A stretch of DNA of 64,000 nt from Candidatus Bathyarchaeota archaeon (lineage in GTDB: Archaea; Thermoproteota; Bathyarchaeia; Bathyarchaeales; Bathycorpusculaceae). Under the pieces are notes generated by a model. It saw only the letters and a list, made by a program, of their open reading frames with translations. It ran no database searches and was not told the origin of the DNA. Where the stretch lies: NCBI GenBank assembly GCA_026014725.1, contig JAOZHV010000008.1, forward strand, positions 1 to 64,000, written 5' to 3'. Shown one piece after another: positions 15,926 through 31,959 of this stretch. The position numbers and the translations under genes are program-made. Position 1 is the stretch's first letter. Each line of letters opens with the position of its first letter.

Positions 15926-18900
15926 ATGCCGTTGTTTAGTGAGAAGTCTTTGATTGAGGATTATTTTGTTGAGCAGTTGGTGGAGCGGAGCGGGAAACGT
16001 TGGAAATTTGTAGCCGCCGACGAATTGGAGCGGGAAGCCACTGAGGAGCCGTTGCTGACTGCCGCGTTTATCCGCGCCCTCAAACGCCTAAATGCCGACA
16101 TCTGCATTGGCGATGATGAAGTTAAGCAGGTCCTAAACGAACTCAAGCTCCGTGGCAGCGGCAGCGAGGATGCAAAGAAAATCCTCAACTACCTAAAAGA
16201 CGGCGTCCCCGTCAAATTCGAAAAAGAACGCGTTGTCAAATACGTTAAACTCTTCGACTACGACAAAGTTGCAGCTAACGATTTTGTGGTCAGCCGCCAA
16301 ATCACCCACCAAGCCGCAGACAAGCAAATCCGAAACGACATAATCCTCTACGTCAACGGCATCCCGCTGGTTAACATTGAATGCAAGAACCCCGCCAGCT
16401 TAACCGAAACATGGTACAACGCTTTCATGCAGATACTGGGCTATGAGCGGGATGTTCCCGAACTCTACAAATACATTCAACTGGGCGTGGCATCGGATAA
16501 CAAAGCCAAATACTTCACGACGCAGCCGTGGCAGCAAAACGGCGAACCCCGATACTACGAATGGCGAGACGCAGGTAAAGACTCCATAGACTCCACAATC
16601 CAGATGCTCATGCCAGAAACCCTCCTAAACATCATCCGCAACTACCTCTTTATCCGCATCGAACGGGGAGCCACAACCAAAGTCGTCACCCGATACATGC
16701 AGTACCGCGCCGCCGAACAAATCAGCAACCGCGTCTTGGGCAACATTGAGGGCAAAACCGACAAAACCAAAGGCTTGGTTTGGCATTGGCAGGGCAGCGG
16801 CAAAACCTTAACCATGATTTTCGCCGCCAACAAACTCTACCGCCACCCCACATTGGCGAATCCGACGGTGTTTTTTGTGGTGGACCGCGAAGAACTCGAA
16901 GGGCAGCTCAGCGACGAATTCAACGCGCTAGACATAACCAAACCCGAAGTTGTAGACTCTATCCATGCGCTGCGGCGGATTATTCAGCATGACGAGTACC
17001 GCGGCAAAAGAGGCATATTTATCACGCTTATCCACAAGTTCCGCCCCGAAGAACTAGCCGAACTGCAGAAAGAACTTGATACCCTGAGCAAGACACGGGA
17101 AACCATCCAAAACCGCAAAAACGTCATCCTCTTCATAGACGAAGCCCACCGCACCCAATACGGCACCCTAGCCGCCCAAATGAAGGAAATCCTCAAAAAC
17201 GCCCAACCATACGCCTTCACGGGCACCCCAGTCGCCAAACAAGGCCACGACACCTATGGCGAATTCAGCTATCCCCCAGACGAGAAATACCTCGACAAAT
17301 ATTTCATGACAGACAGCATCGAGGATGGCTTCACTCTAAAAATCGCTTATCAGCCTCGGCTGGAGGAGGATGTGCACCTCAAAAAGGACATGCTTGAAGC
17401 CTTCTTGGAAGTGAACATTGAGGAAATCCCCGAGAACCTCCAGGATGTGGTTGAGGAGAAGGCTAAGCAGAAACTCAACATCGCCAAAGTGTACCTGGAG
17501 AACCCTGACCGCATCAAAAAAGTAGCCCAAGACATTGCTGAGCACTTTAAGGAGAATTTGGATGGCCGATTCAAAGCCATAGTCGTCGCCGTGAACAGGC
17601 TTTCATGCGTGCGGTATAAACGGGAACTCGACAAGCTACTGCCAAAAGAAGCCTCAGAAGTCGTCATGACCTACAACCCCCTCAAAGACCCCAAAGAAAT
17701 CCAAGACTACCTCAAAGAAGAAATCAGCCGCAACCACGGCAAAGACATAGAAGACATCCGCAAAGAAACCATAACACGCTTCAAAGAAGAGCAGAACCCA
17801 AAAATCCTCGTCGTAACCGACATGCTCCTCACAGGCTTCGACGCACCCATCCTGCAAACCATGTATCTCGACAAACCCCTCAAAGAACACCGCCTCCTCC
17901 AAGCCATCGCACGAACCAACCGCCCATTCAAAGACCTCAAAGAAGCAGGCCTAATCATCGACTACGTCGGCATCCTAAAAGAATTCACCCGCGCATTCGA
18001 AAACTACACCAAAGAAGACATCAGCGGCATACTCATCAACACCGACGACCTCGTCAAAGAATTCACCCAAAAACTCGACGAAACCACCCAGCTCTTCGCC
18101 GACGTACCCAAAGACCAATACGACCGAGAAACGATGAACAAAGCCTTCCAAACCATAACCACCAGCGAAGAAGCCACCAAAAAATTCCAAGCCAACTACA
18201 AACGCCTAAGAAAACTCTTCGAGCTACTAGGTCCACACCCTATTAAACTGGAAAAACTCAAAGACTACGCATGGCTAACCCAAATCTACAACTTCTACCT
18301 CCACGAAACCCGCCAAGACCTAGCCAAAGAAAACGCCTTAGCATACAAGTACTTCCAGAAAACCCTCAAATACGTCTACAAATCAACCGACGTCAAAGGC
18401 ATAGACGAACAATACCCACAAATCGAATTCGACGCAAACTACCTCAAAAACCTCCAAGAGAAACTCAAAACCAAAGAAGAAAAAGCCGCCAACATCCTCT
18501 TCACACTAAACCGCTTCGTCAAAGTCGACGAACAACGCAACCCAATCTACGAGGACTTAGCAGACAAAGTAGAACGCCTCCTCAAACTCTGGAAAGAAAA
18601 AACCAAAAACTTCGAAAAAATCTACAACGACAGCGCCGAAATCTTCCAGCAAATCCAAGCACGCCAAGCACGGCAGAAACAACTCCAATTCACAAACATG
18701 CAGTACGCCATATTACTGGACATGGAAAAAACCATCCCCAACCCCGGCGACCTAACCAAAGACACCCAAGAACTCGCCACCCAGCTGCAACCGTACCTGT
18801 TCAAGGGCTGGCAATACCAACAAACCGCCAAAAAAGCAGTCGAAAGCACAACCCGCAGATACCTGAGAAAATACATAAGACAAAATAACCTCTCGCTAGC

Positions 18901-18955
18901 TGACTTAGAAACGCTTTACCAGAAGATTATTGATAGCGTGAAGAGCTATGCCTGA
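15926..18955 (+). CDS. hsdR: Type I restriction endonuclease subunit HsdR
   Basis: 1009 aa, normal length. The N-terminal nuclease shows the PD-(D/E)xK pattern with D in RNDIILYVNGIPLV and ExK in NIECKNP. The helicase motor has Walker A in WHWQGSGKTLTMIFAANKL, the DEAH box in VILFIDEAHRTQYG, motif III in YAFTGTPVAKQ, and motifs V/VI in VVTDMLLTGFDAP and LLQAIARTNRPF. The C-terminal part is helical and binds the MTase core in family members. It translocates and cleaves unmethylated DNA. Starts 7 bp after hsdS. Codon use in the middle of this gene is notably C-rich (AAC, ATC, CTC) compared with chromosomal neighbours, consistent with transfer. Confidence 0.95.
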   Translation: MPLFSEKSLIEDYFVEQLVERSGKRWKFVAADELEREATEEPLLTAAFIRALKRLNADICIGDDEVKQVLNELKLRGSGSEDAKKILNYLKDGVPVKFEKERVVKYVKLFDYDKVAANDFVVSRQITHQAADKQIRNDIILYVNGIPLVNIECKNPASLTETWYNAFMQILGYERDVPELYKYIQLGVASDNKAKYFTTQPWQQNGEPRYYEWRDAGKDSIDSTIQMLMPETLLNIIRNYLFIRIERGATTKVVTRYMQYRAAEQISNRVLGNIEGKTDKTKGLVWHWQGSGKTLTMIFAANKLYRHPTLANPTVFFVVDREELEGQLSDEFNALDITKPEVVDSIHALRRIIQHDEYRGKRGIFITLIHKFRPEELAELQKELDTLSKTRETIQNRKNVILFIDEAHRTQYGTLAAQMKEILKNAQPYAFTGTPVAKQGHDTYGEFSYPPDEKYLDKYFMTDSIEDGFTLKIAYQPRLEEDVHLKKDMLEAFLEVNIEEIPENLQDVVEEKAKQKLNIAKVYLENPDRIKKVAQDIAEHFKENLDGRFKAIVVAVNRLSCVRYKRELDKLLPKEASEVVMTYNPLKDPKEIQDYLKEEISRNHGKDIEDIRKETITRFKEEQNPKILVVTDMLLTGFDAPILQTMYLDKPLKEHRLLQAIARTNRPFKDLKEAGLIIDYVGILKEFTRAFENYTKEDISGILINTDDLVKEFTQKLDETTQLFADVPKDQYDRETMNKAFQTITTSEEATKKFQANYKRLRKLFELLGPHPIKLEKLKDYAWLTQIYNFYLHETRQDLAKENALAYKYFQKTLKYVYKSTDVKGIDEQYPQIEFDANYLKNLQEKLKTKEEKAANILFTLNRFVKVDEQRNPIYEDLADKVERLLKLWKEKTKNFEKIYNDSAEIFQQIQARQARQKQLQFTNMQYAILLDMEKTIPNPGDLTKDTQELATQLQPYLFKGWQYQQTAKKAVESTTRRYLRKYIRQNNLSLADLETLYQKIIDSVKSYA

Positions 18956-22753: not shown

Positions 22754-25261
22754 TTATGGTCTTCTTTTTAGTGTCATTAGCAGTATTAGGCCGACTATTG
22801 CTATTGCAATTATGATTGCTATTCCCATGGCGATAACGTACATTTCGATTGGAGGCAGAGTAATTTGTGGGATTGGGGCAGGGGTTGCTTCTGGAGCGCC
22901 AACTGCAAAGCTTGTTTGTGCGAACGATGGATAGTAGGCTTTCGAGCCGCCGAATGTTGCAGTAAGGGTATATGCGCCTTCAATATCCGGTGTCCAGATG
23001 TAAGAGAATGTGCCGCTTGCATCGCTGATGGTGGTGCCTATATTGCGGTAGTTGCCATTAGAGTCGATAACATCAAGGCTAATTTCAACACCATTTATGT
23101 TTGTGGGGCGCTCAAAGTTCTTGTAGACATAAAGCATCCAAGCGCTTTGGTTATTGTCAGAAACTGCTGGGACTCCGTTTGGGAATCTTGCTTCAATGGC
23201 GTATTGTTTTGTGCCTGGTGATTTGTCCGTTACTGTACCTTTTATGACGACCGATTTTCCAAAGTCAACCGAAACGTCAGGCGCTGTCACGGTTGTAGCA
23301 CTTGGTCCTTTACCAATTGCGTATACTTGCTGGTCATAGGAATCCATAGTGGCGATGATGCTGTCGCCTATAATTGCTCGTCCACCCCAATCGGTTTGAC
23401 GGAACAAGCCATCTGCCCTAAATATTTCCTCTCCTGTTTCGGTATCAACGCAAGCGAATGGTCCACCGCGTGTTTTAGGGTCAACTGGCGAATGTTCTGA
23501 TGTGCCCATGTAAATTCTTCCGTTAGTAAAGAATAGCGGTCTGATGTGCCATTGATTTGACCACAAGACTTGGTTATAGGGGTCGTCTGCCTCGTAGGTC
23601 CATTGTAGCTTCCCTGTTTGAGCGTCATAGCAGTATAGTACGCCACTCATGCCTTGAGAGAAGAGTTTACCGTAAGCAACGAAAGTACGCAATCCTAAGT
23701 AGTCTAGATAGTTCTGCGCTCCGGTTGGACCCCAAATGTAATCGCCTGTTTGTGTGCTAAAGCCCCAGTACTGCTGGGTTTCTTTGCTCCATACTGCAAT
23801 TAACCCGTCATCGATGTTTCCTGCGGCTCGACTAATGGTTTGGTTACCGTTAACCCAGTCTGCTGGTGCATTCCAAACTTTGTTATAGAGCAAGGTTCCT
23901 AGACTTCCAGGGGCTAGGCTAATAGCCCATGTTTGAACATGTGTGGTGTTTGTGTTTGAGCCTACAACGCGGTCGTCTATCTTGTATAGGTATGCGCTTC
24001 CAGGCAGACCTCTTGGTATTGTTACGTTCCATTGATAGCCGTTAAGACCTAAGGGTGTCGATGCAGTCACGCGGCAGGTTCCTGTTGCGTTGAGAGTTTT
24101 TCCTTGAGGTCTCCAAGAGCCCCATTGGAATGACATTGGGTCTGTTCCCCAGTATGCATCTATGACTGCTGAGGAATTCCACATGGTCATGTATCCTCTT
24201 GTCAAGTCAACTTGGTATCTTATGATTTCTCCATGGGGACCATAGAGGTTGCTGCCCGTGGGGACGTTGGACATCGAGAATAGCCATCTGCCTGTTAATG
24301 GGTCAAAGGCGTGCCATGTGGTGCCAGATGTACACCACAAGTAGGCATGGGTTCCGTGAGCGTTGAATGAGTCCCAATTATATATTTGACCAAAGCTTGG
24401 GTTGAGGCGTTCTCCGGCGGGCGTAAGAAGCGGTTTTTCCCATAGTATCTGTCCAGAATGTAAGTCAACGGCAACGACCCAGTTGTCGACAGCAGTGCCT
24501 CCAATCGAATCGAATTTTACGTAAAAGAGTATTCCCTGTATTATAAGTGAGCCACTAAATTTGCCTTCATACGCATCACCTGTGTACGCACCCGCAGCTC
24601 CAAGGTCTCCTCCAGCTAAGCCACCTAGCACCAATGGGTGGTTCCAGAGGATGTGAGCTGTTTCAGGGGCATAGTCGTTGCCATTAGCTATACTATTTGA
24701 GGGTGTTGCAAGCCAACTTGCTGATATTGTTGACCAGTCTCTAAGTTGCGAGTCTATAGGTCTGCTCCAATATTCAGTTGGAAGGGCATGTTCTGGATAT
24801 ATGGGTATGGGGTCTTGTTGTACTATTAGTGTAAGTACTCGGCTATCACTGGCAAGCATAGTTGTGCCTAGTGGTGTGCCGGGTGTTGTTTTACCAGTCT
24901 CAGTTTTTTGCTCAGGGAAGTGAGTTTGTAGGGTATAGTTGCCTTCCATGGTTGGGACGTACACGGCTCCTGTTCCGCCTGTTGAGTCAGTTTTGAATGG
25001 TCCTAGCGTTTCTTTGCTGCCGTCTGGTCTTGTTACGGTTACTGTCAGTCCTGTCCAGCTTTCCTGCACTAGTGATAGTTGCTGTGTTATGCCTATGTGG
25101 AGTAGTGTTTCTTGGTTGACACCTACCGGGTTCGGTGTAGCACCAATATAAGCGTAGGTTGCTCTTGTGTCTGCAGTAACGGTTGGTATAGTGAGCAGGG
25201 GTATAGAAATAGCAAGAATCATAAAGAGTGCAAAAATGGTCTTATTTGTATTTTTTTGCAT
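22754..25261 (-). CDS. Secreted PQQ-type beta-propeller protein, membrane-anchored (paralogue 1)
   Basis: 835 aa. Signal peptide (KTIFALFMILAISIPLLTIP), an Ig-like N-terminal domain (residues about 30-150, ATPNPVGVNQETLLHIGITQ), a conserved LPTEYWSRPID linker, then PQQ-type propeller blades (for example DTETGEEIFRADGLF, YDAQTGKLQWTYEADDPYN, VAVDLHSGQILWEKPL) to about residue 650, Ig-like domains, and a C-terminal helix (MYVIAMGIAIIIAIAIVGLI) with KRRP stop-transfer. It should be tethered outside the cell. There is no evidence of bound PQQ; the propeller may bind polymers. Three paralogues are at 29293, 52830 and 55843; this one lies inside the integrated element. Good AGGAG site 9 bp before ATG. 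Divergent from a TrmB-type regulator. Confidence 0.85.
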   Translation of the reverse strand: MQKNTNKTIFALFMILAISIPLLTIPTVTADTRATYAYIGATPNPVGVNQETLLHIGITQQLSLVQESWTGLTVTVTRPDGSKETLGPFKTDSTGGTGAVYVPTMEGNYTLQTHFPEQKTETGKTTPGTPLGTTMLASDSRVLTLIVQQDPIPIYPEHALPTEYWSRPIDSQLRDWSTISASWLATPSNSIANGNDYAPETAHILWNHPLVLGGLAGGDLGAAGAYTGDAYEGKFSGSLIIQGILFYVKFDSIGGTAVDNWVVAVDLHSGQILWEKPLLTPAGERLNPSFGQIYNWDSFNAHGTHAYLWCTSGTTWHAFDPLTGRWLFSMSNVPTGSNLYGPHGEIIRYQVDLTRGYMTMWNSSAVIDAYWGTDPMSFQWGSWRPQGKTLNATGTCRVTASTPLGLNGYQWNVTIPRGLPGSAYLYKIDDRVVGSNTNTTHVQTWAISLAPGSLGTLLYNKVWNAPADWVNGNQTISRAAGNIDDGLIAVWSKETQQYWGFSTQTGDYIWGPTGAQNYLDYLGLRTFVAYGKLFSQGMSGVLYCYDAQTGKLQWTYEADDPYNQVLWSNQWHIRPLFFTNGRIYMGTSEHSPVDPKTRGGPFACVDTETGEEIFRADGLFRQTDWGGRAIIGDSIIATMDSYDQQVYAIGKGPSATTVTAPDVSVDFGKSVVIKGTVTDKSPGTKQYAIEARFPNGVPAVSDNNQSAWMLYVYKNFERPTNINGVEISLDVIDSNGNYRNIGTTISDASGTFSYIWTPDIEGAYTLTATFGGSKAYYPSFAQTSFAVGAPEATPAPIPQITLPPIEMYVIAMGIAIIIAIAIVGLILLMTLKRRP

Positions 25262-26294: not shown

Positions 26295-26738
26295 TTAATT
26301 TTGGTTTGTTTTTATTGTTCTTTTTCGGCATATCGTTTGTGTATACTGGAAGGATACGGTAATTCGCTTTCTACTTAGGCTCCTGCTAATTTCATTATTA
26401 ATCCGGTTGTTTTCTTTTCCTTTGCTTGCATGCCCAAAACGTGCCACTTTCCAACGTTTCATGTCTCCTCTTATTATCTGGGGATTGCTGGTTAGTATGT
26501 AGAAGGGCAGTTTTGTCTGAGAAGTGTAGAGTTCAGCTATAAAGTTAAGAAGACGTTTACCAACACCTATACCCTGATAGTCAGGCAGCACAACTAAGCG
26601 GCTAACTCGAAAATATTTAGCCATCATCCTAACAGCAGCGACGGCGATAAACGCTATAGGCTTGTTTTGGTAGATAGCACAGTAGCACCTAACACCTGCT
26701 CCAAGAGAACCGTTTAGATAATGATAGCTCCGAAACAT
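26295..26738 (-). CDS. GNAT acetyltransferase-fold protein, probably the C-terminal half of an ABC-GNAT fusion
   Basis: 147 aa as an independent ORF. It contains FRSYHYLNGSL, IAFIAVAAVRMM, the acetyl-CoA-binding beta4/alpha3 region VSRLVVLPDYQGIGVGKRLL, LTSNPQIIRGDMKRW and a C-terminal RKRITVSFQY. The same frame is open further upstream through KKRIRPPIELQVYRCGTSAWQ and joins the ATPase gene at the A7 run 26795-26801, so the ATG at 26738 is probably not the true start. This matches an ABC-type ATPase fused to a predicted acetyltransferase (COG2401-like), known from archaea and phages. Substrate unknown; DNA-base modification by a Mom-like reaction is one possibility. Confidence 0.75.
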   Translation of the reverse strand: MFRSYHYLNGSLGAGVRCYCAIYQNKPIAFIAVAAVRMMAKYFRVSRLVVLPDYQGIGVGKRLLNFIAELYTSQTKLPFYILTSNPQIIRGDMKRWKVARFGHASKGKENNRINNEISRSLSRKRITVSFQYTQTICRKRTIKTNQN

Positions 26739-27337
26739 CTGCCAAGCTGATGTGCCGCACCGATAAACTTGGAGTTCAATGGGCGGCCTAATTCTTTTTT
26801 TCGGATAAACTCCATAGTGTCAGTGCAGAAAACCCAGTCTGGGTCAAGCCAATCCACTACATCATAGTGGCATGTGACGGCGATAAACTTCTTGCCTGAG
26901 CGTTTAACTGTTCTGCTAATCGCGAAGGCGCTAACTTTAGCTATTTCTCTGTCAACCACACTTGTGAACTCGTCAAAAACTATTAGCGGCTTATCCAAGC
27001 ATAAGGCTCTGGCAATGTCAACCCTCATCTTCTCACCTTGGCTAAGGCAATCATAGCTTTTTAGCCAATCCCGTGGAGAGGCAAACCCTACGCTGCAAAG
27101 TATCCTTGTTATCTCTGAAGTCTCAAGCTCCTCTGGAAAATCATCTAAAACGCAACTGCTCTTGTATTCAAAGCCTCGAATATAAGCATCGGGGAACAGT
27201 TGCTTGGCTATGCTTGTCTTGCCTGAGCCACTGCGCCCCACAATAACACCAACTTGCCAATCGAAATCTTCCAGCTGCAAGGAGCCTTTGAAGCGCTTCT
27301 CCAACTTTACATCATTGAGCGTATAGCTTCCGACCAC
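26714..27337 (-). CDS. ABC-type ATPase of the viral ParB/ABC/GNAT cassette
   Basis: 207 aa. Walker A VGRSGSGKTSIAKQL, signature CLSQGEKMRVDIARA, Walker B LIVFDEFTSVVDREI and switch His in VTCHYDVVDWL. There are no membrane or transporter features, so it is a soluble ABC ATPase. The last 27 residues (ELGRPLNSKF ... FGAIII) look like an out-of-frame tail; a -1 shift at CGA AAA AAA G leads instead into RKKRIRPPIELQVYRCG and the GNAT domain, producing a protein of about 350 aa. It lies 38 bp below the ParB-like gene. Confidence 0.82.
   Translation of the reverse strand: MVGSYTLNDVKLEKRFKGSLQLEDFDWQVGVIVGRSGSGKTSIAKQLFPDAYIRGFEYKSSCVLDDFPEELETSEITRILCSVGFASPRDWLKSYDCLSQGEKMRVDIARALCLDKPLIVFDEFTSVVDREIAKVSAFAISRTVKRSGKKFIAVTCHYDVVDWLDPDWVFCTDTMEFIRKKELGRPLNSKFIGAAHQLGRCFGAIII
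26795..26801 (-). other. A7 slippery run joining ABC and GNAT frames
   Basis: On the minus strand the zero frame reads CGA AAA AAA GAA. A -1 slip on A-AAA-AAA gives AGA ATT AGG CCG CCC ATT, continuing in frame with the GNAT domain. Either a programmed frameshift or a one-base indel. Confidence 0.5.
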
Positions 27338-27375
27338 GCTTTGAGCGCGGAAACTATTGCTTTCTTGCCAGCTTT

Positions 27376-27933
27376 TTACAATGTCAAAATCCGTAGCTTA
27401 TACCCCTCCAACTTTAGTTTTTCAAACTTAGTTTTCTGGTCAGCCTCGTCTTTGCACTCGACAATTATCTCGTAGGTTCCGGGAACCGAAAAAGAGATTT
27501 CACGGTCATCCACCTCCATTGGAAGCTTCTCGCCTACGGATTCAAGAAGCGCCTTCAAATCTTCCTTCTCTCCCTGTTCAACAATGCGCAAATAGTCAGC
27601 AGTGTCCAACTCCCTGTTGTGTTTGCCTCTTAGCTTGTTTAGCACCTGCCGCAGCAATCGACGGTCAACCTCTTTGACTGGCAAGCAGATGACGCTGCAC
27701 TCGGTCATGCCAAGCTCCTTCATAGCCGTAATACGCTGTTGCCCATCAGCCACCAAAAGCTCACAGTTGGTTACGACTGGAACGATGTCACCCCACCGCT
27801 TAATTGAAGCTTTCAAGCGGTCAAGCTGCGCCAAAGTCATCCTGTTGGGATTATTTTCTGTGTCAAGTTTTAAGTCGCTGATTTTCACACGTTCTGACAT
27901 AGGAATTGGAATTTCCCTTTCAAACTCACTCAA
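27376..27933 (-). CDS. ParB-like (ParB/Srx-fold) protein
   Basis: 185 aa. MSERVKISDLKLDTENNPNR, then QLDRLKASIKRWGDIVPVVT and NCELLVADGQQRITAMKELG form the ParB N-terminal fold, with DGQQR in place of the GHRR/GERR box. A C-terminal region (DREISFSVPGTYEIIVECKD) is beta-rich. No ParB HTH domain is present, so chromosome partitioning is unlikely; stand-alone ParB-fold proteins in phages act as nucleases or NTP-dependent clamps near packaging or modification genes. Overlaps the 249-aa gene by 4 bp. Start may be ATG 27933 or the internal ATG at residue 13. Confidence 0.8.
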   Translation of the reverse strand: MSEFEREIPIPMSERVKISDLKLDTENNPNRMTLAQLDRLKASIKRWGDIVPVVTNCELLVADGQQRITAMKELGMTECSVICLPVKEVDRRLLRQVLNKLRGKHNRELDTADYLRIVEQGEKEDLKALLESVGEKLPMEVDDREISFSVPGTYEIIVECKDEADQKTKFEKLKLEGYKLRILTL

Positions 27934-29292: not shown

Positions 29293-31959
29293 TTACTGTT
29301 TTTGCCCTTTGAAATATATTTGCGGTAGTCTTCTTACCATCATCATTAGTATTAAGCCGATTATGACGATGGCGATGATGATTGCAGCTACGGCTGGTAT
29401 GAAGTATTGGTCAGCTAATGACTGTGAAATCTCCAGTGGCGCCGTTTTTGTTGGGGCTACTTCGTCTGCGTGGAATGATGTTTCAGCGGATGATGGATAG
29501 TACGATTCTGTACCTGCAAAGCTAGCGACTACTGTGTAATCGCCAGGTATGTCAGGAGTCCATGTTAAGGTGAACATGCCGCTGCCATCGCTTATTGTGG
29601 TGCCGATTTCTCGGTAGTTGCCGTTTGCATCTAGGACGCTTATGGTGACTGGAACGCCGATTACATTGTCTGGCATTGGTTGTTGCATGTAGACGTATTC
29701 CATCCAGCGGCTCATGATAGCGTCAGAGACGCATGGTACGCCGTTGGGGAAGTTGGCTGCTTGCGCTTCTTGTTTTGTGCCTGCCGCAATGTCGGTAATG
29801 GTGCCTCTTATTACTACTGGTGTGGCGGTTGTAACGCCTACTTGAGGTGCGGTAACAGTTAATTTGCTTGGTCCTTTACCGTAGGTGTATAGTTGGTTGT
29901 CATATGCATTTAACACTGTCACATAACCGTCTACGATGGTGGCTGCGTTCGTCACGTCAAATCCGGTTATTTCCCAAATTAGCTCTCCGTTGGTGATGTT
30001 TATAGCCAGTTGCTTAGCTCCACGAAACAGTGGTGGGCTGTACTCATGACCTACGTTAAGGAAGTACACTCCTCCAGCGATTGAACCACCGCTAAAGACC
30101 CACAGTGGCCATACACCGTATGGCGTGTCTGATCCAGCCTCGCCTAAGAGTTTGTTGGTGCTTGTGTACCAGACTTCTTTACCTGTGTTTGCGTCGATAG
30201 CCCATATGTCGCCTCCGAAGCCCATAATGTAGAGGATGCCGTCAGCGATTTCAGTTTGGTAGCCGCCGATGCTGTTATATGGGTTAGGTACTGGAACGTT
30301 TCCGTTGTCGCCTTTGAGTTGTATTGGGCCCCATTTCAGTTCACCTGTTCTCAAGCTGTAAGCCCTTAACTTGCCTGTGGCTGATTCAAGATAGAAGTAC
30401 ATTCCGTAGCCAGATTTGGTTATTTGGTCCCGTGTGAAAGGTGTTAGCGTTCGGTTAGCGATCCATAATTGTTCTCCCGTTACGGCATCGTATGCTGCGT
30501 CGATTTGGAAGCCGATGTTAAAGTATGATGCACCCACCGCTGTCATAAGCACAACGCCGCAGTCAACCCTGTTAATAGATAGAGATGCTGTTACTGGGTT
30601 ACCTGACAGATCAGTTCCTGCTGTGAACGGGCCAGTAGACATGTTGGTGGCTACTGGTTTAGACCACATTATGCCACGCGTAAAGTCAATGGTGCTGTTT
30701 TGGCCTGGTCTCCAACTCCAGCTGTCGGAAGTGACGCCTTTTATGTATTGGCTGTTGGGGTATAAAATCGCTTGCGTAGAGTTCCAGCAGTTCAGTGTTG
30801 GTTTGCCGAATTGGTTTGCCGTGCTTGAGTTAACATAGTAGCCAATCAAGTTTCCTCCTTCGTCTGAAACTAGGTTCATTGTGGTGCCGTTGACGATGCT
30901 TAGTATGTAGTCGCCTGTCATTGCATCAAACATGTTCCAAGTTGTTGAACCTGCCTGTGTTCTCATTCCTGCGGGAGTACCTGTGCTCCATAAGTATGCG
31001 ATGCCTCCGAATTGGTTGGGGTTCACCATATCTAGTATTTGCCCGCATCTTAGAATCGTCTGTGCGCCTGTGCTGGTCATTGGGTATTGGTCTTCTTTAG
31101 TCCAGATTGTTTCTCCAGTCCTCAAGTTTACCGCGGACCAGCCGACTGGGTTGTTTATGCTGCCAGGGTAATTAACGTAGTACATTATTCCGTTCATTAT
31201 GATTGGCGCCCATTTTGGCTCGTACTGCGAGGTTGAGTAGAAGTTGCTTGTGTCGTCTCCGCCGTATTCGCCTCCCATTAAGCCTCCGAACGCGACTGGT
31301 TTTGTCCACATGATGTGGGCTGCTAGTGGCGCGTTAGAGTATGGGTTATAGTTGCCTGTAGCGTTGTATCTTCCAGTTGCAGCGAATGAATGTGCACCGA
31401 GGCCTAGCCAGTTGCCGCCAAGTTTGTACCACGGGTAGTTCATTGCTTGTATTGGGCGTGTCCAGTATTGTGTTGGAAGAGGAGTCATTGGAAGCGGGGG
31501 AGTCGGTTCTTCTTGCACTGTTAAGTATGCTACATCGCTGGTGGAGGGCTTAAAGTAGTCGCCGATGTATGCATTGTTGGGGTTTGCTCGGTTTTCACCT
31601 TTTAATGTTTCTCCTGGATAGTTAACGACGAAGGAGTAATTGCCGAGTTTGTCAGGTGTGAAACTAGTCCATGTTCCTCCTGTGGCGTCAGATGTGAATG
31701 GGCCTAGCGTTGTTTTGATTCCATCAGGATCGGTGATGGTCACGGTAAAACCGTGCCATCTGTCGCCGTTTGTTCCAGAAGCTGTGGGGGGCGGTATTTG
31801 GACCCACATGCCGATTGTTACTGTTTGTCCTATCCCTGCAGGGTTAGGTGCAACGCTGCAATAGGCGTATGTTGGGATTTGCCATGGTGGGGTATGTGCA
31901 TTAGCAAGTGTCATTGCTCCTATTGAAACTATCAAGATTGCTGTGATTATAATTCCCAT
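29293..31959 (-). CDS. Secreted PQQ-type beta-propeller protein, membrane-anchored (paralogue 2)
   Basis: 888 aa from ATG 31959. N-terminal hydrophobic segment (GIIITAILIVSIGAMTLANA) then HTPPWQIPTYAYCSVAPNPA, Ig-like domain, LPTQYWTRPI linker, propeller blades (NLRTGETIWTKEDQYP, DAVTGEQLWIANRTL, YSLRTGELKWGPIQL, DANTGKEVWYTST), C-terminal Ig-like domains and a membrane helix (YFIPAVAAIIIAIVIIGLIL). The usual Lys-rich n-region of the signal peptide is encoded in frame just upstream (KKTQKTRTKI), yet no ATG, GTG or TTG lies there before an in-frame stop; GGGAG is spaced 8 nt from an ACG codon, so a non-standard start is possible. Lies just outside the right attachment site. Confidence 0.83.
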   Translation of the reverse strand: MGIIITAILIVSIGAMTLANAHTPPWQIPTYAYCSVAPNPAGIGQTVTIGMWVQIPPPTASGTNGDRWHGFTVTITDPDGIKTTLGPFTSDATGGTWTSFTPDKLGNYSFVVNYPGETLKGENRANPNNAYIGDYFKPSTSDVAYLTVQEEPTPPLPMTPLPTQYWTRPIQAMNYPWYKLGGNWLGLGAHSFAATGRYNATGNYNPYSNAPLAAHIMWTKPVAFGGLMGGEYGGDDTSNFYSTSQYEPKWAPIIMNGIMYYVNYPGSINNPVGWSAVNLRTGETIWTKEDQYPMTSTGAQTILRCGQILDMVNPNQFGGIAYLWSTGTPAGMRTQAGSTTWNMFDAMTGDYILSIVNGTTMNLVSDEGGNLIGYYVNSSTANQFGKPTLNCWNSTQAILYPNSQYIKGVTSDSWSWRPGQNSTIDFTRGIMWSKPVATNMSTGPFTAGTDLSGNPVTASLSINRVDCGVVLMTAVGASYFNIGFQIDAAYDAVTGEQLWIANRTLTPFTRDQITKSGYGMYFYLESATGKLRAYSLRTGELKWGPIQLKGDNGNVPVPNPYNSIGGYQTEIADGILYIMGFGGDIWAIDANTGKEVWYTSTNKLLGEAGSDTPYGVWPLWVFSGGSIAGGVYFLNVGHEYSPPLFRGAKQLAINITNGELIWEITGFDVTNAATIVDGYVTVLNAYDNQLYTYGKGPSKLTVTAPQVGVTTATPVVIRGTITDIAAGTKQEAQAANFPNGVPCVSDAIMSRWMEYVYMQQPMPDNVIGVPVTISVLDANGNYREIGTTISDGSGMFTLTWTPDIPGDYTVVASFAGTESYYPSSAETSFHADEVAPTKTAPLEISQSLADQYFIPAVAAIIIAIVIIGLILMMMVRRLPQIYFKGQKQ

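Follow-up and report, generated by a model that had tools for sequence, protein, structure and literature searches.

The window, i.e. the whole stretch of 64,000 nucleotides analyzed here, comes from the genome of a Bathyarchaeotal soil archaeon, and copies of the locus from the same genus match contigs of named Candidatus Bathyarchaeota MAGs. The locus lies on the minus strand and includes two overlapping reading frames preceded by a ParB-like gene (Table 1). The first frame gave a Pfam ABC_tran match (3e-10), and the motifs of an ABC ATPase could be read from it directly: Walker A GRSGSGKTS, signature LSQGEKMR, Walker B IVFDEFTS and the H-loop CHYD. The second frame matched the GNAT families Acetyltransf_7 and Acetyltransf_1 (5e-8 and 3e-7, respectively). 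A single PHROG, phrog_11143 (357 aa), covers both frames in order, first its positions 31-191 and then 197-354. Judged by these matches, the ORF pair is a member of the phrog_11143 or ABC-ATPase–GNAT family, in which a GNAT domain comes after a full set of ABC ATPase motifs; no family label other than phrog_11143 was obtained for it.

Table 1. Features of the ATPase–GNAT locus, with positions counted from the first nucleotide of the window.
Feature	Position	Strand	Remarks
ParB-like (ParB/sulfiredoxin-type) gene	27376–27933	-	Immediately upstream, overlaps the ATPase frame; PHROG ParB-like and methyltransferase matches to 9e-17
Shine-Dalgarno-like GGAGGGG before the ATPase frame	27403–27409	-	GGAGGG kept in most loci of the A7 clade
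0-frame ORF, ABC ATPase and short tail	26714–27394	-	Stop TAA 26714–26716; start uncertain, ACG 27392–27394 or GTG 27335–27337
Putative -1 shift site, slippery heptamer A_AAA_AAA	26795–26801	-	Context CGA AAA AAA GAA
Predicted stem-loop	26754–26787	-	Arms 26780–26787 and 26754–26762; 7 nt downstream of the slippery site
Dual-coded overlap of the 0-frame tail and the GNAT N-terminus in the -1 frame	26714–26794	-	Frozen codons
GNAT acetyltransferase domain, -1 frame, C-terminal half of the fusion	26295–26801	-	Pfam, PHROG; no conserved start codon

The frames overlap from just upstream of the A7 run, which is seen as T7 on the plus strand, to the stop of the ATPase frame. Within this overlap A_AAA_AAA conforms, in the phase of the 0 frame, to the X_XXY_YYZ pattern of programmed -1 frameshift genes. 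Past the junction the unshifted ATPase frame reads ...TMEF IRKKELGRPLNSKFIGAAHQLGRCFGAIII and ends 30 codons beyond the ATPase domain, while the -1 frame reads KKRIRPPIELQVYRCGTSAWQMFRSYHYLNG and continues to a stop at 26295. At its other end the ATPase frame extends beyond the GTG at 27337 without a stop until about 27397, and no ATG, GTG or TTG start was found between these positions. Where the relatives have ATG, GTG or TTG the window has ACG, with the GGAGGGG element 8 nt upstream of it. This ACG is common to nearly all loci of the clade of the window (AAG in L043), and it is either a non-standard start codon or the real start lies further downstream.

A ParB-like homologue precedes the ATPase in all 24 Bathyarchaeotal relatives, and terminase genes were found next door in L063 and in phage records. 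The gene of the window, a virus-type gene, has the linked ParB-like gene and the phage context of the phrog_11143 family. Large PQQ/beta-propeller proteins of one kind adjoin the cassette at either end (22754–25261 and 29293–31959); a similar neighbor is present in the relative locus L041, and such flanks may mark an integration site. A gene resembling the R subunit of Type I restriction enzymes (HSDR_N, SWI2/SNF2) is located at 15926–18955. The genomes G003, G017 and G022 each include several ParB/ATPase/GNAT cassettes on different contigs, consistent with multiple proviruses. The window's own genome also encodes four distant single-frame proteins of about 500 aa (L002–L005, on G000:C59, C31, C5 and C42) with 30–35% identity in the ABC ATPase, each adjoining a terminase-like gene and representing a second, separate ABC-ATPase viral family.

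Conservation of the frame break and its signals

The read-through (fused) sequence was searched in the genome of the window and in 60 related genomes, 61 in all. Close homologues from eight other genomes, several of them with multiple copies, were also split into two pieces at the same point, and 24 complete copies were taken for comparison, making 25 loci together with the window. In 24 of these the ATPase is in the 0 frame and the GNAT domain in the -1 frame, with an A-run at the junction whose site does not change and whose phase is that of A_AAA_AAA. The run was A7 in 13 loci (the window and 12 relatives) and A9 in 11. The exception, L056 (G003:C16:67000-75008), carries A8 together with extra stops and a misplaced frame, and it appears decayed or mis-assembled; L172 was noted alongside it. 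The preliminary description had seen an ATPase ORF running past the A7 with the GNAT domain in the -1 frame, and this is borne out by the frames, the Pfam and PHROG matches and the recurrence in homologues. It had also named close homologues as the place to look for conservation of the run and the frame change, and both were found there. Its assumption that the fused form is probably functional gains support from the site and frame kept in the 24 loci.

In many copies a stop only a few bases upstream of the A-run closes the GNAT frame, and no conserved start codon was found in the GNAT frame across the Bathyarchaeotal relatives. The shift is therefore most likely to take place at the A-run.

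The seven outer pairs of the stem-loop 3' of the slippery site are invariant in all 13 A7-type loci. The stem shows no covariation, and because invariant arms give no compensatory changes the pairing is not independently proven. The stem is absent from the A9-type archaeal relatives, as if the longer run needed less help, and RNAalifold detected no consensus structure across the 24 archaeal loci, the stem being seen only within the A7 clade. Among residues invariant within this clade, codons were frozen at 8 of the 14 conserved degenerate positions in the overlap, whereas upstream of it only 2 of 87 and downstream none of 45 were frozen, and the frozen codons of the overlap include those of the stem arms. 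No consistent upstream SD-like element was found in the members with the GNAT domain in the -1 frame.

Arrangements in the wider family and selection on the second frame

The search of phage records, viral contigs and genome contigs identified 495 related loci with both domains (225 at 80% identity), most of them from phages. In about a quarter of the loci the GNAT domain is in the -1 frame behind slippery sequences, and in the remainder the domains are fused in frame. The first arrangement, with GNAT in -1, includes 59 non-redundant members. Runs of A7–A11 are found in Bathyarchaeotal, Bacteroidota and other viruses, G_GTT_TTT, A_AAT_TTT, T_TTT_TTT, A_AAG_GGC and others in Firmicute phages, and A_AAA_AAG in two viral contigs of another clade, so that the heptamers of the differing lineages appear to share function, not letters. 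A strict X_XXY_YYZ heptamer was present in 52 of the 59 members, compared with 27.7 (sd 3.1) expected from protein sequence and codon usage. This excess is only moderate, because Lys-Lys codons favor A-runs anyway.

The second arrangement, an in-frame fusion on an A10 run (CAA_AAA_AAA_AAT_AGA), was found in 18 loci, and in these a -1 slip would meet TAG at once. Four IMG/VR contigs (L110, L138, L139 and L151) have A11 in place of A10 at the junction, CAA AAA AAA AAA TAG, and their 0 frame stops at once; this rare one-base genomic difference flips which product is read in frame.

The third arrangement, an in-frame fusion without an A-run, was present in 146 non-redundant loci. Its junction usually consists of GGAGG or GGGGG, three nucleotides, CTT or GTT, and then mostly C or T. 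An RF2-like +1 motif of the type GGAGG-NNN-CTT-C was detected in 116 of the 146 loci with 1.2 expected, and in none of the 146 in the upstream control. About 20 fused representatives lack a strong SD-like element, and in the Actinomycetota loci such an element precedes GTT-C in 12 cases out of 12.

A +1 shift in the fused genes would enter the same tail frame that is used as the 0 frame in the window. Given protein sequence and codon usage, this alternative frame would be expected to have a stop at a fixed place, inside the HYL motif of the GNAT domain, in 66 of the fused genes (sd 5) and to be open in 97 (sd 5). Both were observed in 163 of 164 genes. Where G follows the Leu codon, this codon was TTA or CTA in 26 of 27 cases, making TAG. 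The same test gave no excess for the -1 frame of the fused genes (37 vs 50 expected) or for a downstream control region (62 vs 58 expected). The related sequences are not fully independent, but a set dereplicated at 60% identity gives the same picture, with stops in 42 of 42 (14.9 expected), open frames in 42 of 42 (23.4) and the motif in 25 of 41 (0.18). Single-frame homologues without a slippery run, which the preliminary description had regarded as refuting the recoding, thus do exist, but most of them carry the +1 signal and the selected alternative-frame stop.

A tree made with FastTree has the -1 types nested at several places, and the type with the widest distribution in it is the fused +1 type. 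At least 16 changes between fused and split forms are present, many of these inside the A9/A10 cluster. Fused Treponema genes with AGGGGG-NNN-(C/G)TT are the sister group (support 90) of the Bathyarchaeotal-type -1 clade (support 99). Within the archaeal phylum the gene was present only in the genus of the window among the 127 genera sampled, which suggests that it has spread by virus transfer. Taken from these comparisons, the viral ATPase–GNAT family has probably been under long-lived selection for two products by recoding at the junction, its lineages, the archaeal one included, having switched the direction of the shift (+1 out of the fusion or -1 into it) and the slippery chemistry with no change in the products or the alternative stop.

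Probable recoding and the competing explanations

The locus itself is probably one gene from which two proteins are made by programmed -1 frameshifting, a reading that has sequence data only behind it, with no transcript, ribosome-profiling or peptide data. Translation would start behind the ParB-like gene and proceed through the ABC ATPase. Some ribosomes would pass CGA_AAA_AAA_G in frame and stop about 27 codons further on, which would yield a short-tailed ATPase of about 226 aa, while others would slip back one base on the A7, aided by the stem-loop, and read into the GNAT domain. The product of the slip would be an ATPase–GNAT fusion of about 366 aa if the start is the ACG at 27394. Other family members would make the same two products by slippery sequences of different letters, and in the members of opposite polarity the fusion would be the 0-frame product and an RF2-like +1 shift would give the short ATPase. 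Because ABC ATPases are active as dimers, short chains mixed with long ones would be inferred to form complexes with fewer GNAT domains, and a fixed ratio between the chains, also an inference, would set the number of GNAT domains per complex, in the manner of dnaX with tau and gamma.

The slippage on the ribosome is likewise inferred, and the preliminary description had left programmed frameshifting, transcriptional slippage and an indel as options. In transcriptional slippage RNA polymerase would add or drop an A in the run, and the mixed mRNAs would be translated normally into both products. Polymerase could slip on runs as long as the A9–A11 of the archaeal A9 loci and of many IMG/VR phages, and the genomic A10 (fused) and A11 (stop) versions occur in nearly the same context, but the run of the window is A7 only. 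Furthermore, the signals of the sister lineages are heptamers other than homopolymers or a +1 motif dependent on an SD element, and both act on ribosomes. The conserved 3' stem has the spacing of a ribosomal signal and agrees better with frameshifting, leaving transcriptional slippage as an unlikely source of the two products. Programmed recoding is supported by the stem-loop, the frozen codons and the unrelated heptamers of the phage relatives with the -1 arrangement.

It is very improbable that the GNAT domain is a separate protein made on its own through reinitiation or coupling close to the 0-frame stop, as the annotators of phage records assume when giving two CDS (e.g. Lactococcus P335 and Streptococcus Javan141). 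The ATG at 26736–26738 could start such a protein in the window, but this codon is not conserved, being Val, Ile or Thr in some relatives, and a start there would drop the conserved upstream -1-frame residues RPPVELxVYRC; most relatives are, moreover, fused in one frame. Homopolymer indels are frequent errors of assemblies and L056 does look broken, but for the genome of the window faulty assembly, faulty sequencing and gene decay, and with them the indel option, are ruled out because the same -1 offset and run recur in 24 of the 25 loci, on separate contigs and in several genomes, and the offset is also found in cultured phages and both domains retain their motifs.

Known systems, predicted function and annotation

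The frameshifting proposed for the family would, if true, mean that each gene of a widespread phage family encodes two proteins; at present these genes are annotated either as one fusion or as a pair of ORFs without relation to each other ('iron siderophore transporter'). It would also be a clear case of convergent recoding, in which the same two products are retained although the mechanism and even the shift direction differ. To our knowledge, archaeal -1 frameshifting has long been represented almost solely by fucA1, and the present case would be the second in archaea with good support, being conserved in many loci. Literature searches, which had partial coverage and did not include the text of the 2013 paper that reportedly first described the ABC-ATPase/GNAT family, found no earlier report of ATPase–GNAT recoding.

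The fucA1 alpha-fucosidase of Saccharolobus solfataricus has a -1 frameshift on A_AAA_AAT with a putative downstream stem-loop (PMC8211752) and is thus similar to the locus studied here in being an archaeal shift on an A-rich heptamer. It is, however, a single chromosomal enzyme with mostly full-length relatives, whereas the shift in the window is conserved across a viral family, apparently with two usable products. Also dnaX (tau/gamma) gives a long and a short form from one ATPase gene; some ATPase–GNAT relatives use A_AAA_AAG, and in the A10-type relatives the -1 shift leads directly to a stop. The 0 frame gives the long form in dnaX but the short form in the window. The +1 site of prfB (RF2), AGGGGG, three nucleotides and CTTT (PMC12421855), resembles the junction of the in-frame relatives described above. 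In contrast to prfB these have no stop codon in the A site, and their shift would yield the short, not the full-length, product; its outcome would be two products, while the purpose in prfB is autoregulation. Actinomycetota have lost the RF2 frameshift (PMC12421855).

Among the phage records, the read-through protein matches phage pT24. The ABC-ATPase/GNAT system of this phage has been predicted to acylate a DNA base as a nucleobase acyl-modification system (Iyer, Burroughs and Aravind; PMC7824862), and it has the same domain order, family and ParB-like neighbor as the window. The accessible part of that description does not mention a frame break or recoding, whereas the domains of the window lie in different frames. 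From family and context, the likely task of the protein is ATP-driven acylation of a viral DNA base, the modification of DNA being an inference, and whether the ratio of ATPase to ATPase–GNAT matters for it would then be a testable question.

The AlphaFold model of a fused relative, L182 (pLDDT 87, pTM 0.80), has two confident domains, ABC and GNAT, and the recoding site falls in the linker between them; the best full-length viral match was a protein of Leptospira phage LE4. By sequence, no close solved relatives were found for the GNAT domain beyond weak Naa50/RimI-type matches, and the ATPase matched generic ABC domains. The PDB fold search gave mostly ABC domains and, at a low TM-score, TmcA (2zpa), in which an ATPase and an acetyltransferase act on tRNA cytidine; this is an analogy only. 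PADLOC matches to mad3 and a methyltransferase were weak and partial.

In the phage records MT859305, MK448681 and MK448933 the ATPase half is labeled 'putative ABC iron siderophore transporter' and the GNAT half 'hypothetical'. The preceding gene is labeled DNA methylase or methyltransferase in these records and ParB/Srx in the related record OL774867. The record of Tenacibaculum phage pT24 (L553) has two CDS in the same frame, parted by a stop inside the GNAT region.
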